Source of the DNA: Methylobacterium sp. J-088
Lineage (GTDB): Bacteria; Pseudomonadota; Alphaproteobacteria; Rhizobiales; Beijerinckiaceae
Reading direction: 5' to 3'
DNA: 64,000 bases
Assembly (NCBI RefSeq): GCF_022829295.1
Contig: NZ_JAKSYH010000278.1
Coordinates: 1 to 64,000 of the forward strand
A program made the translations under genes and the position numbers. The stretch's first letter is position 1, and every line of letters starts with the position of its first letter. Shown here piece by piece: positions 1 to 45,019 of this stretch. The notes below the pieces were generated by a model. It was not told the origin of the DNA and did no database searches. It saw only the letters and a list, made by a program, of their open reading frames with translations.

Positions 1-288
1 CGCACCCTGGGCGTGGCGGGCCCGGTCCTCGATGTCGTCGGCGCCGACGAGGCCGCCCACGGTCTCGCGGAGGCGTCCGCCGAGGTCACGGGCGGTGTGG
101 GCGACCTGCCCGGCCGCGGCGCGCACGGTGTCCTTAGCCTGGCCGTAAAGGTTCTCGGGCTTGCCGCTCGCCTCGCGGGCTCGGCCCTCGGCCGAGTGCC
201 GCTGCGAGCCGTGCAGGTCGCCCACCGCGCCCTGCACCTTACCGCCGAGTTCCTTCGCGGCGCCCGTGATCCGGTCCGTGTCGACCAT
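1..288 (-). CDS. CsbD-like stress protein, 3' end cut by the window edge
   Basis: The reading frame opens at an ATG on the minus strand (288-286) and stays open for 96 codons to base 1, so the C-terminus lies outside the window. An AGGAGA ribosome binding site lies just upstream of the ATG. The product begins MVDTDRITGAAKELGGKVQG, the typical opening of the CsbD family of small hydrophilic proteins. It continues with repeated amphipathic Ala/Gly/Arg/Asp-rich segments. CsbD proteins are general-stress-induced in Bacillus and alphaproteobacteria, but their biochemical role is unknown. I saw no EcfG-type promoter between this start and the next gene, so stress control here is inferred from the family and neighbourhood only. 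It is longer than the usual roughly 65-residue CsbD, which suggests an extended variant. Confidence 0.8.
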   Translation of the reverse strand, partial: MVDTDRITGAAKELGGKVQGAVGDLHGSQRHSAEGRAREASGKPENLYGQAKDTVRAAAGQVAHTARDLGGRLRETVGGLVGADDIEDRARHAQGA

Positions 289-583: not shown

Positions 584-2047
584 TTAAGTTTGCTCATTAT
601 TCGTGAGCGGAAACCCGTTATCGCGACCCCATATGATCGCTTCGCTGCGCTTGTGAATACCGAGCTTGCGGTAGAGCGCTGCCCCGTGATTCCGCACGGT
701 GTTGCGCGAGAGGCTGAGCTTGCGTGCAATCAAGTAGTCGCTCAGGCCGGAGCAGATCAGGTTGAGGATCTGCCGCTCGCGCACCGTCAGACTCGGCATC
801 GATCCGTCCGCGTTCTCGCGACCCGGGTGACGAAGGTTGGCCAGCTTGTCGATCAATCCGCGGCTGAACCACGACGTATCGGCCATCACGGCTTCGATTG
901 CGTCGAACAACTCGCGCTCGGTGTGCTTGCGATCGGTGATGTCCTGCAGCACCATCAGGATGAAATCCCCATCGTCGATGGTGACCCGCTCGGCCGAGAC
1001 CAGACAATCGAGGTTGGTCCCGCTCTCGTGGCGCAGACACACTTCGACGCCGAACACGAAGCCGCTTTCGGCCATCGCCGCATCGAAGCGCAGGCGCTGA
1101 GCGTCCTTTATCCAAAGGCCCGCTTCATCGAGGCTGCGCCCGACGATTCGATCCTCGCCGAAACCGAACACGCGCCCGAAGGCGTCGTTGATGCCCGTGA
1201 CGCAGCCATCCTGAGAGCGCGCCAGTACGGTCGGCACCGGCGTCATTCGGAACGCCGTGGCGAAGCGCGCCTCGCTCTGGCGCAGGGCGGTCTCGGCCTT
1301 CCGGCGCAGTTCGAGGTCGGCGAAGGTGAACAGCATGCAGGGCTCGTCGCCGAGTTCGATCTGCTGGCCCGCCACGATCACGAACCGCGAGCCGCCATCG
1401 GGCAGGTCGAGGCACGCCTCCATCTGCGGGATCGTCCCGCCCTCGTGCAGCCGGGAAATCGCCAATTCGCGGTTGCGGGCATTGGCCAGGACATCGACTT
1501 CGTAGACGCTGCGGCCGATCACGGCATCGCGTGTGAAGCCGGTCATCTCAAGAAAGCCGGTGTTGACCTTGACGTGGCGCAGGTCGGACAGCCGCGTGAT
1601 GATGGCGGGCGCCGGGTTGGCGTTGAAGGTCGCCTCGAAGCGCTCCTCGGCCTCGAACTGATCGGAAACGTCCTTCAGGATCAGGGCGAGGCAACTCGGT
1701 TTGCCCTCGCGGTCGGTGGCGACCAAGCTGCGCAGGCAGTGGACGAAGTCCAGCTCCGGCTTGTCGGCCCGCTTCACCTCGACGACGACATCGTGGAAGG
1801 TCTCGCCGGCCACGACGCGCTCGATCGGGTAGTGGTTGGGCGTATTGTTGTTGCGGTAGCGCAGCGAAAACCGATCGCGGTAGGCGTCCACCGTCTGGCC
1901 GAGCTCGTCGAGGCTCTGAACGCCGTGCATCGCCAGGGCAGCCTCGTTGGCATACGCGATGGTCTGATCGGGCTCGACCAGGATCACGCCCTCGCTCAAG
2001 CCGGCGATGATCTGTCGGAGCTCATGCCTGTCCACGCCCACCGTCAC
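584..2047 (-). CDS. Triple-PAS, LuxR-type HTH transcriptional regulator
   Basis: This 487-residue protein appears to be a cytoplasmic sensor-regulator with three PAS-like modules and a C-terminal DNA-binding domain. PAS modules lie at about residues 10-120, 130-245 and 255-375; NANPAPAIITR and RMTPVPTVLARS are typical PAS openings, and LILKDVSDQ and MVLQDITDRK are typical PAS ends. A LuxR/FixJ-type helix-turn-helix follows at about 415-475 (LTVRERQILNLICSG, then SLSRNTVRNHGAALYRKLGI). There is no transmembrane segment, histidine kinase domain or receiver domain, so signals are probably read directly by the PAS domains. The start is GTG at 2047, with a GAGGGAG Shine-Dalgarno about 14 bases upstream. 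An EcfG-like promoter lies about 50 bases upstream, suggesting general-stress induction. The ligand and targets cannot be told from sequence. Confidence 0.85.
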   Translation of the reverse strand: MTVGVDRHELRQIIAGLSEGVILVEPDQTIAYANEAALAMHGVQSLDELGQTVDAYRDRFSLRYRNNNTPNHYPIERVVAGETFHDVVVEVKRADKPELDFVHCLRSLVATDREGKPSCLALILKDVSDQFEAEERFEATFNANPAPAIITRLSDLRHVKVNTGFLEMTGFTRDAVIGRSVYEVDVLANARNRELAISRLHEGGTIPQMEACLDLPDGGSRFVIVAGQQIELGDEPCMLFTFADLELRRKAETALRQSEARFATAFRMTPVPTVLARSQDGCVTGINDAFGRVFGFGEDRIVGRSLDEAGLWIKDAQRLRFDAAMAESGFVFGVEVCLRHESGTNLDCLVSAERVTIDDGDFILMVLQDITDRKHTERELFDAIEAVMADTSWFSRGLIDKLANLRHPGRENADGSMPSLTVRERQILNLICSGLSDYLIARKLSLSRNTVRNHGAALYRKLGIHKRSEAIIWGRDNGFPLTNNEQT

Positions 2048-2098: not shown

Positions 2099-2123
2099 AA
2101 CGGGTTGCGCGCAAGCGGGTTCC
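2099..2123 (-). promoter_or_regulatory. EcfG-type (general stress) promoter for the PAS-LuxR gene
   Basis: Read on the minus strand, GGAAC (2123-2119) is followed after exactly 16 bases by CGTT (2102-2099). This matches the alphaproteobacterial EcfG consensus GGAAC-N16/17-CGTT. It lies about 52 bases upstream of the GTG start at 2047 and is correctly oriented. It also sits in the intergenic region facing the divergent ECF sigma gene. The match is seen directly; function is inferred. Confidence 0.6.
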
Positions 2124-2260
2124 AGTGAAGGCGAACTTTTCACTGGTATACCTGCATCATTGACGCCATCGAGATCGACCAGAGATAAGTTCTGGCCGTT
2201 GCGAAAGCGCGATAAGCCGAGCAGCGTCGATTACCATTCATCGCAACCGGTGATCCCGAC

Positions 2261-2932
2261 GTGCAACCCGCCGATGAACTGCGCGACGCGGCCGACGCTG
2301 CCGGGCACCATCATGCTTTTGTCCCTGGAGATCTCGGGGTACGGTTACGCGAATACTATCCAGAAGTTGCTGCAGTTGATCCAGCTTCGCCTCTCGGTGC
2401 GGTGCTCGGACGGCTCTCTGTGGCGTTGGATACGGCCGACACGCGCCGCCAGGTCCCGAACGCCTTCAAGGATGACCTGATCGGCCTCGTTCCACGGCTG
2501 CGCCGCTACGCGCTGTCCCTGACCTTCGACGGCAACGAGGCCGACGATCTCGTGCAGTTGACCCTTCTGAAGGCCTGGGAGCACCGCGGACGATTCGAGC
2601 CCGGGACGAGCCTGGTGGCGTGGCTGTTCACGATCCTGCGCAACGGCTTCATCAACGGACGTCGCAAGCGCAGTCGGGAAGTGCCGGACCCCGACGGCGC
2701 GCACGCGGCCAACCTTTCTGAACCGCCCCGGCAGGATCACACGCTCCGCCTGCGCGATCTTCAGGCGGCGATCGGCCGGCTCGAACCCGCCCACCGGGAA
2801 GCGCTGATGCTGGTCGCCGTCGACGGTCTGCCCTACGAAGCTGCCGCGAGCGTGATCGGCTGTCCGTCCGGCACCGTGAAAAGCCGCGTCAGCAGAGCCC
2901 GCGAACGCCTGACTCGGGAACTCGGCGCATGA
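2261..2932 (+). CDS. ECF sigma factor (EcfG-like) with a NepR-like N-terminal extension
   Basis: One uninterrupted frame of 223 residues starts at GTG 2261; the upstream in-frame stop is at 2213 and there is no ATG between. Residues about 69-140 are a sigma-70 region 2 (FKDDLIGLVPRLRRYALSL, ADDLVQLTLLKAW, WLFTILRNGFIN). Residues about 164-215 are region 4 (LEPAHREALMLVAVDGLPYE, then PSGTVKSRVSRARERL). This resembles EcfG, the general-stress sigma factor. Residues about 25-60 (LGVRLREYYPEVA, LGAVLGRLSVALDTAD) resemble the two-helix core of NepR, the anti-sigma factor usually encoded as a separate small ORF directly upstream of ecfG; the conserved PVPD motif of NepR is not kept. Alternatively, translation may begin at an internal GTG (2402 or 2420), giving a plain sigma factor with the NepR-like codons as an upstream remnant. 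No phyR gene is nearby. Confidence 0.8.
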   Translation: MQPADELRDAADAAGHHHAFVPGDLGVRLREYYPEVAAVDPASPLGAVLGRLSVALDTADTRRQVPNAFKDDLIGLVPRLRRYALSLTFDGNEADDLVQLTLLKAWEHRGRFEPGTSLVAWLFTILRNGFINGRRKRSREVPDPDGAHAANLSEPPRQDHTLRLRDLQAAIGRLEPAHREALMLVAVDGLPYEAAASVIGCPSGTVKSRVSRARERLTRELGA

Positions 2933-3270
2933 CGTCCGTTTCTTCGTCGATGCCCCTCCAGGGGGCACCCATCGTTTCAGCGCTGTCTGCCCGCGGCACG
3001 TGGAGTGATCCGAGAGCTGAGCGAGCGAGTTCGCCCTCACTCGGCCCGGCTTCTGCGTGGAGTCTCGGACCCCACAGGCTGCATGCAGCTCGACGGGGGG
3101 AGCCACCGTCAGGCGATGGGCGACCAGATCCGGCACCGCCGCCGCGCGAGCGTCCCCTCGGCGCGGACGAGCCCTCAGAACCCATCGATAACCCGCTCGA
3201 CGGCGAGCGGCCCGGCCCCGGGCCGGACGTGCCACCGGGCGACCCTGCCGGCCCGGATCTGCAGGATTGA
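2929..3270 (+). CDS. Possible small proline-rich protein overlapping the sigma gene stop
   Basis: The ATG at 2929 overlaps the stop of the sigma gene in an ATGA arrangement, which could mean translational coupling. The 113-residue product is low in complexity, with no recognisable domain. Its C-terminal third is rich in Pro, Asp and Gly (for example EPIDNPLDGERPGPGPDVPP). Other frames across this stretch are also open because of the high GC content, so this may not be a gene. I see nothing else convincing from here to 3566. Confidence 0.3.
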   Translation: MTSVSSSMPLQGAPIVSALSARGTWSDPRAERASSPSLGPASAWSLGPHRLHAARRGEPPSGDGRPDPAPPPRERPLGADEPSEPIDNPLDGERPGPGPDVPPGDPAGPDLQD

Positions 3271-44422: not shown

Positions 44423-45019
44423 TTGAGGAAGCATCAAACGAGCGCACCCCTGCCGCTCACCGATACGCTCACACCGGGTATTCCGCTCGATCAGATCGGC
44501 AGGACACTCGCCTCGTTCTACGACGACCTCGTGTCTGAGGGCGTGCCCGAGCACCTTGCCGCCCTGGTTCGCCGCGTCCGTCAGACCGAGGCCGAAGAGC
44601 CAGCGCGACCCGAGGCTGGCGCCGCCGCGACGGCTGCGGTGCATGCGCGGCTCGCGCTTGTGGTCGAGGACGATCCCCAGATCCGCGCCCTGGCCGAGAC
44701 GCTGCTCGAGGAGACCGAGCTCGACGTGATTGGCTGCGATAGCGCCGAAGCCGCACTCTTGGTCCTGCAGGCGCGTGGCGGAGACGTTGCCCTGGTCTTC
44801 GCCGATATTCGGCTAGCCGGCCAGATGGACGGTTTGCAACTCGCCCGGGCGGTGGCGACCCTCTGGCCCCGGGCGCGGCTGGTGGTGACCTCCGGCCACG
44901 ATTTGCCCCGTCCCGACCTGCCGCAGGAAGCCGTTTTCATCGCCAAGCCGTGGCGTCCGCTCGACGTGCTGGTCGAGGCGGAGCGCGCGGCTGCCGAGCC
45001 TGCACCCCCTGTTATCTGA
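44423..45019 (+). CDS. NepR-like domain fused to a response-regulator receiver
   Basis: TTG 44423 has a very strong GGGGGGAG ribosome binding site five bases upstream; 198 residues. Residues about 24-54 (LDQIGRTLASFYDDLVSEGV, PEHLAALVRRV) resemble the two-helix core of NepR, the anti-sigma factor of EcfG. Residues about 76-190 are a receiver with the expected residues: acidic pair Glu82-Asp83-Asp84, phospho-acceptor Asp128 (FADIRL), Thr156/Ser157 and Lys175 (IAKPW). PhyR, by contrast, is a sigma-like domain fused to a receiver. The arrangement here suggests a phosphorylation-controlled anti-sigma factor or a partner switch of a new type. No kinase is adjacent. Confidence 0.85.
   Translation: MRKHQTSAPLPLTDTLTPGIPLDQIGRTLASFYDDLVSEGVPEHLAALVRRVRQTEAEEPARPEAGAAATAAVHARLALVVEDDPQIRALAETLLEETELDVIGCDSAEAALLVLQARGGDVALVFADIRLAGQMDGLQLARAVATLWPRARLVVTSGHDLPRPDLPQEAVFIAKPWRPLDVLVEAERAAAEPAPPVI

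Follow-up and report, generated by a model that had tools for sequence, protein, structure and literature searches.

The closest described relatives of the gene considered here are the six EcfG sigma factors of Methylobacterium extorquens, which carry a NepR-like N-terminal extension of about 55 residues that occurs only in Methylobacteriaceae, perhaps stems from an ancient fusion and has no known role (Francez-Charlot et al. 2016, PMC4814048, where Francez-Charlot et al. 2009 is credited with having already noted the extension). The gene in question lies at positions 2261-2932 (forward strand) of a 64,000-nucleotide stretch of Methylobacterium sp. J-088 (contig NZ_JAKSYH010000278.1, hereafter the window) and joins a NepR-like segment in frame to an EcfG-type sigma factor. 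An earlier note, made from the DNA letters alone, had treated this arrangement as unusual. However, because PMC4814048 reports the same extension for the M. extorquens EcfGs and for Methylobacteriaceae, the central claim of a NepR-like/EcfG fusion is already in print. The window gene is a further paralog of this known kind, and what is added here is its conserved pairing with a divergent gene for a regulator with PAS domains and a LuxR-type helix-turn-helix (PAS-LuxR).

Published experiments on M. extorquens bear on such an extension. In strain AM1, EcfG1 has a second start that yields an isoform 14 residues shorter, and both isoforms are functional in vivo (PMC4814048). In vitro, NepR binding was found for truncated EcfG1 only, and two-hybrid assays detected it only for truncated EcfG1 and, more weakly, EcfG5. 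A mutant without all six ecfG genes was complemented by both EcfG1 isoforms, including the full-length one, and by ecfG2. Since extended EcfG genes complement this sextuple mutant, the extension does not abolish activity in M. extorquens, which gives no support to the expectation of the earlier note that a tethered pair would inhibit itself and need a new release mechanism. AM1 PhyR was co-precipitated by NepR and by two NepR homologs; these homologs bind PhyR and no tested EcfG, and overexpressing one of them led to greater stress sensitivity. Whether the extension adds any feature to the sigma factors is left open by PMC4814048, and a 2021 review (PMC8103513) finds no mechanistic information for the regulation of extracytoplasmic function (ECF) sigma factors via N-terminal extensions. 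The passages concerned in PMC8103513 and PMC8999054 do not mention the Methylobacterium extension.

Like EcfG1-6 as described in PMC4814048, the window protein has a NepR-like extension fused in frame ahead of an ECF15 sigma, occurs as one of multiple paralogs per genome and belongs to a family-restricted group for which a fusion origin has been proposed; in AM1, none of the six lies at the phyR locus. Unlike EcfG1-6 as described there, its lineage is tied to the divergent PAS-LuxR gene. Its NepR core is also more eroded than that of C235, a paralog in the same genome that is probably the EcfG1 counterpart. The order of parts is identical to that of NepR-EcfG operons and of the Bartonella quintana pair in structure 5UXX. 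In other Alphaproteobacteria, however, the operon encodes two proteins, with a stop or a frame change between the genes, whereas here the anti-sigma part, a short NepR relative of two helices, is an N-terminal extension in the sigma's own chain. There is also a likeness to PhyR, whose sigma-like domain binds NepR, in that the sigma domain of the window protein matches PhyR_sigma2; unlike PhyR, which has a receiver, it matches true sigma regions 2 and 4.

The gene is a single uninterrupted open reading frame from GTG at 2261 to TGA at 2930-2932 and encodes 223 residues. The NepR-like two-helix segment (residues 23-62, positions 2327-2446), delimited by NepR profile, hhalign, AlphaFold2 (AF2) models and substitution rates, is followed by a linker (residues 63-75, 2447-2485) between its second helix and sigma region 2. 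Sigma-70 region 2 covers residues 77-139 (2489-2677; PF04542, 59.5 bits) and region 4 residues 165-217 (2753-2911; PF08281, 54.5 bits), all on the forward strand, and the EcfG-type (ECF15) part as a whole takes up about residues 68-222. Both regions, as well as a PhyR_sigma2 match at residues 77-126, lie above the Pfam cut-offs, and a Pfam search of the protein found no receiver domain. The top solved relative is the 5UXX sigma chain, crystallised with NepR (138.8 bits), and in a 109-row tree the window sigma groups with EcfGs encoded beside nepR. The window protein is an EcfG (ECF15) sigma factor, as had been proposed, with the curated cut-offs for regions 2 and 4 passed.

The NepR descent of the N-terminus was also confirmed, in the qualified sense that comparison of many sequences identifies it as a worn, NepR-derived segment fused ahead of the sigma. 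A direct search of residues 1-70 found no match in Pfam, and the relationship emerges through orthologs, which do match profiles of free NepRs. A profile of 23 orthologs aligned with NepR in hhalign at 95.8% (E 7e-9), relating the two-helix core by profile, and the five nearest orthologs only (L001-L005, window included) reached 84.3% (E 7e-6). As controls, 200 column shuffles reached 11.7% at best, and sigma columns, tried in five stretches, at most 2%. Individual sequences were scored on a fusion-free profile of 30 free NepRs (L101-L130, with identical cores collapsed) drawn from other families of the order. The window N-terminus scored 8.2 bits, equalled or bettered by 13 of 20,000 shuffles, 13,714 of which were given a score, while for 19 of 36 fusion N-termini no shuffle reached the score. 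The best scores came from the own-genome paralogs C235 (33.5 bits) and C176 (31.8 bits) and from orthologs L006 and L010 (27 bits). Single sequences can be uninformative, because the lowest fusion score (L016, 1.9 bits) was reached by 515 of the 20,000 shuffles.

Natural sequences gave a similar picture. Among 8,567 overlapping 70-residue pieces used as decoys, 42 of the top 45 were free NepR, NepR-like or fusion pieces, the other three coming from L172 (two) and the window (one). Upstream in-frame segments of unfused EcfGs scored at most 1.9 bits against 1.5-33 bits for fusions, ranges that touch. A chance resemblance to NepR is ruled out by the shuffles, the natural decoys and these upstream segments. 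Paralog C235 has a NepR match of 34.4 bits, over the Pfam cut-off, that shares its frame with the two sigma domains. Of 20 fetched C235-like orthologs, 19 have NepR cores that score 24-36 bits; the exception (L233, -0.9 bits) reflects a badly placed cut, and its printed N-terminus is NepR-like.

The fusion is widespread within the genus. All 99 surveyed Methylobacterium genomes have matches to the window protein, and in the 94 with a listed best match (all except G021, G044, G053, G066 and G093) this match begins at or before query residue 32 and runs in an open frame without stops. Pfam NepR is above cut-off in all 59 sampled genomes of the genus, and at least 21 of these have a NepR match lying in frame within an open sigma frame of this kind. 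The genome of J-088 holds at least seven fused paralogs (the window gene, C97, C122, C176, C183, C235 and C270). It also has one EcfG without a fusion, encoded next to a free nepR (C234), and its phyR likewise lies next to a nepR (C59). Among the matches listed for 385 genomes of the class (E limit 1e-40), both parts share one frame solely in the two Methylobacterium genomes. Elsewhere in the order, outside this family, the query often spans neighbouring nepR and ecfG genes that an in-frame stop separates, or nepR lies in a different frame, and in an annotated Roseobacter example the two are separate genes; this agrees with the earlier statement that nepR and ecfG are normally separate. Ten loci picked from the matches listed because they extended far upstream (G427, G620, G524, G568, two in G340, G385, G285, G312 and G183) were fetched and rejected as fusions, with in-frame NepR scores of at most 0.5 bits. 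NepR was unmatched in three sampled genomes from other genera of the same GTDB family (G140, G180, G244). The fusion is present on the two Microvirga plasmids examined (12.4 and 19.9 bits) and on the AM1 megaplasmid (21.5 bits). Of the five matches listed from 53 records of a phage collection, one (31% identical) begins at residue 41 and the other four no earlier than residue 68.

All 38 fused-labelled rows of the 109-row tree, which does not include Microvirga, form one clade (support 96/75; 94% of 200 bootstrap trees). This clade is sister to the genome's own unfused EcfG, and C97 sits on a long branch. Since the fused sigmas form one clade, their history is consistent with a single fusion followed by duplications.

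The reading frame proposed from GTG 2261 is real: among the matches listed no internal stop was found. Of 30 orthologs (window gene included), 21 have a start codon at the very position of the window gene's start, and 29 have one no more than 4 codons away. By comparison, start codons occur at a mean of 3.6% per position across residues 2-47 and 30% per 9-codon span across residues 6-43. The next commonest position is residue 48 (12/30 orthologs), within the second NepR-like helix, and the window has no further in-frame ATG, GTG or TTG between residues 1 and 48. The ratio of nonsynonymous to synonymous substitution rates (dN/dS) falls along the protein, from about 0.60 (residues 1-22) to 0.26 (residues 23-62) and 0.18 (sigma part, residues 76-222) in L001-L013, and from about 0.73 to 0.42 and 0.26 for seven members of the L014-L022 clade. 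Across six close species, dN/dS was 0.13 for fused NepR, 0.09 for free NepR and 0.02 for sigma, with pairs of unequal length skipped and a free-NepR dS of 1.16, near saturation. The helix pattern is retained by most of the 23 aligned orthologs. These ratios indicate that the NepR-like segment is under purifying selection, weaker than that on the sigma. An internal-start or out-of-frame artefact is rejected on the codon-level constraint together with the conservation of the start.

What the segment does can be approached through predicted structure. Both AF2 models place two helices in it, at residues 25-36 and 44-61 in one and at 23-32 and 44-61 in the other, and the nearest structure to the second model is the NepR-bound sigma of 5UXX. 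An alignment with free NepRs added was left unused, as MAFFT had laid the NepRs over the sigma region. Fusion, common descent, constraint on the segment, start codon and neighbourhood are established here. For the segment's function, the likeliest mechanism, to which together with descent from an ancient nepR-ecfG fusion we give about an even chance, is that its helices dock in cis on the NepR face of their own sigma, shielding and perhaps damping it. Under such a mechanism, the NepR-derived helices would bind the NepR-binding face of the sigma domains in the same chain, and the docked segment would keep the sigma closed and perhaps damped while excluding free NepR from it. Core RNA polymerase, or a sigma mimic of the PhyR type, would then open this closed state. 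If the segment works in cis, it would show a trans inhibitor turning into a built-in domain and paralogous sigmas escaping a shared inhibitor.

Several observations weigh against this docking model or against parts of the descent on which it builds. By itself the window sequence resembles NepR weakly: a search with residues 1-70 drew nothing from Pfam or NCBIfam at E<=10, and neither the whole protein nor its first 70 residues match Pfam NepR (PF18557) at its cut-off of 25.7 bits. The NepR inter-helix loop motif, which we take to be PVPD, is lost, as the earlier note had seen: the window reads VDPASP, and PVPD is absent from all 23 aligned orthologs. Remnants of the loop persist in paralogs C97 (EPLP) and C235 (LPSRF). 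The fused clade's value of 75 in the Shimodaira-Hasegawa-like approximate likelihood ratio test (SH-aLRT) falls short of the 80 that the tool itself sets as its mark. The NepR-like segment evolves much faster than the sigma, given a dN/dS of 0.36 for the NepR core vs 0.04 for the sigma in 22 sequences of C235-like genes. The first AF2 model (12 sequences, some unfused) was of low confidence, with a predicted template modelling score (pTM) of 0.38; it was not closed and lay 13.5 Å from 5UXX. AF2 confidence was low for the model of five fused sequences (mean predicted local distance difference test score, pLDDT, 66.8), and its closed arrangement likewise resembles SigW-RsiW, CnrH-CnrY and PhyR. 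In AM1, NepR was pulled down in vivo by both EcfG1 isoforms, a point against full shielding, and EcfG2 is apparently constitutively active (PMC4814048).

Some of these points would also fit a segment that has lost sigma and PhyR binding and is kept for solubility, stability or inertia, with the sigma controlled by synthesis or proteolysis. The loss of PVPD, the missing Pfam match and the faster evolution of the segment all agree with such a relic, as do the protein-level control of AM1 EcfG3 and the apparent constitutive activity of EcfG2 (PMC4814048). However, dN/dS is lower for residues 23-62 than for residues 1-22 (0.26 vs 0.60), the start is conserved and most of the 23 orthologs keep the helix pattern. 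The earlier note had offered the relic as an option; because the segment is under purifying selection it is not favoured here, and we regard it as possible but rather unlikely.

Alternatively, the segment could fully inhibit the sigma until phosphorylated PhyR draws it off, making a partner switch in one chain. The genome does have PhyR beside a free nepR, and the NepR cores of C235-like orthologs are still recognisable at the scores given above. Against this, the window lacks the PVPD loop and extension-bearing EcfG genes complement the sextuple mutant, while the relevant parts of PMC4814048 report AM1 PhyR co-precipitated by NepR and its two homologs and do not mention binding between the extension and PhyR. 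A switch of this kind is distinctly unlikely.

More doubtful still, and in our view very improbable, is an action in trans in which the segment serves as a PhyR decoy or as an inhibitor of other EcfGs. The two AM1 NepR homologs that bind PhyR and no tested EcfG, one of which raises stress sensitivity when overexpressed (PMC4814048), offer a precedent, but in the seven own-genome fusions a short linker joins the segment to the front of a sigma whose regions 2 and 4 both pass their cut-offs, and binding in trans would presumably favour retention of PVPD. Least probable of all is that translation begins at one of the later in-frame codons (GTG at residues 48 and 54, TTG at residue 56), in which case the product would be an ordinary sigma and the conservation ahead of it a matter of the DNA. 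Such internal start codons exist, residue 48 being one in 12 of 30 orthologs, and AM1 EcfG1 has its second start 14 residues in (PMC4814048), but codon-level constraint extends upstream of residue 48, itself a position within the second helix, and 21 of 30 orthologs have the residue-1 start.

Returning to docking in cis, the set found in this one genome (seven fused paralogs with graded NepR erosion, one unfused EcfG and one phyR-nepR locus) makes the role of the extension directly testable.

The neighbourhood of the window gene is conserved. The divergent PAS-LuxR gene (584-2047, reverse strand, 487 residues; Pfam) has a counterpart of 75-98% identity, likewise divergent and beside the fusion, at 19 of the 20 ortholog loci fetched (L173-L192; exception L191). 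At the window edge, a small stress gene that we take to be CsbD-like from its translation (1-288, reverse strand) starts at 288 and continues past the edge, and a homologous reading frame occurs in 17 of the 20 loci. A second copy of the module in the same genome (L165, carrying C183) has a fused sigma, a PAS-LuxR gene 81% identical and a CsbD-like gene; the exact promoter described below is absent from it. The words LuxR, PAS and CsbD have no occurrences in the main text of PMC4814048, and a library search for the pairing was likewise empty.

Between the divergent genes, an EcfG-type promoter, GGAAC-N16-CGTT, faces the PAS-LuxR gene (2099-2123, reverse strand), in agreement with the GAAC-N16,17-C/GGTT consensus of M. 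extorquens (PMC4814048). The exact motif toward PAS-LuxR is found in 16 of 19 loci (all except L189, L190 and L192). Its weight rests on this conservation, because matches of the GGAAC/CGTT type are not enriched across the window (4 vs 2.45 expected; 25 of 100 shuffles had at least 4). Toward the fusion gene, a candidate sigma70-like promoter, TTGACG-N18-GATAAG (2160-2189, forward strand), was picked out by eye. A palindrome, GGTATACC (2145-2152), largely conserved by eye across 13 aligned upstream regions, may be an operator.

The conserved pairing makes PAS-LuxR a concrete candidate controller of this EcfG branch. More tentatively, and on balance unlikely, the eroded NepR in the PAS-LuxR-linked branch could act as a cis shield that places the sigma outside the PhyR-NepR switch and under PAS-LuxR, which would itself be an EcfG target. 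If true, the general stress response would have a side loop in this branch.

At the other end of the fusion gene, a proline-rich reading frame of 113 residues (2929-3270, forward strand) overlaps the sigma gene end by ATGA and has no Pfam match. A GGAAC-N15-CGTT match at 2917-2940 (forward strand) was set aside as probably due to chance, given the 4 matches vs 2.45 expected.

Other NepR architectures were also seen, and NepR modules seem to have been shuffled in this genome. At 44423-45019 (forward strand) of the window, a NepR core (44489-44587; PF18557, 29.4 bits, over cut-off) belongs to another NepR fusion and shares its frame with what is presumably a response-regulator receiver. In L036 (G000:C89:53848-53949, reverse strand), a NepR core of 28.9 bits lies within an open frame of 1142 residues, directly after a domain in the same frame that we also assume to be a receiver. 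Downstream of paralog C235, a small open reading frame (L166:7818-8153, forward strand) contains a NepR-helix-like stretch, VRDHLGQQLRGVL.
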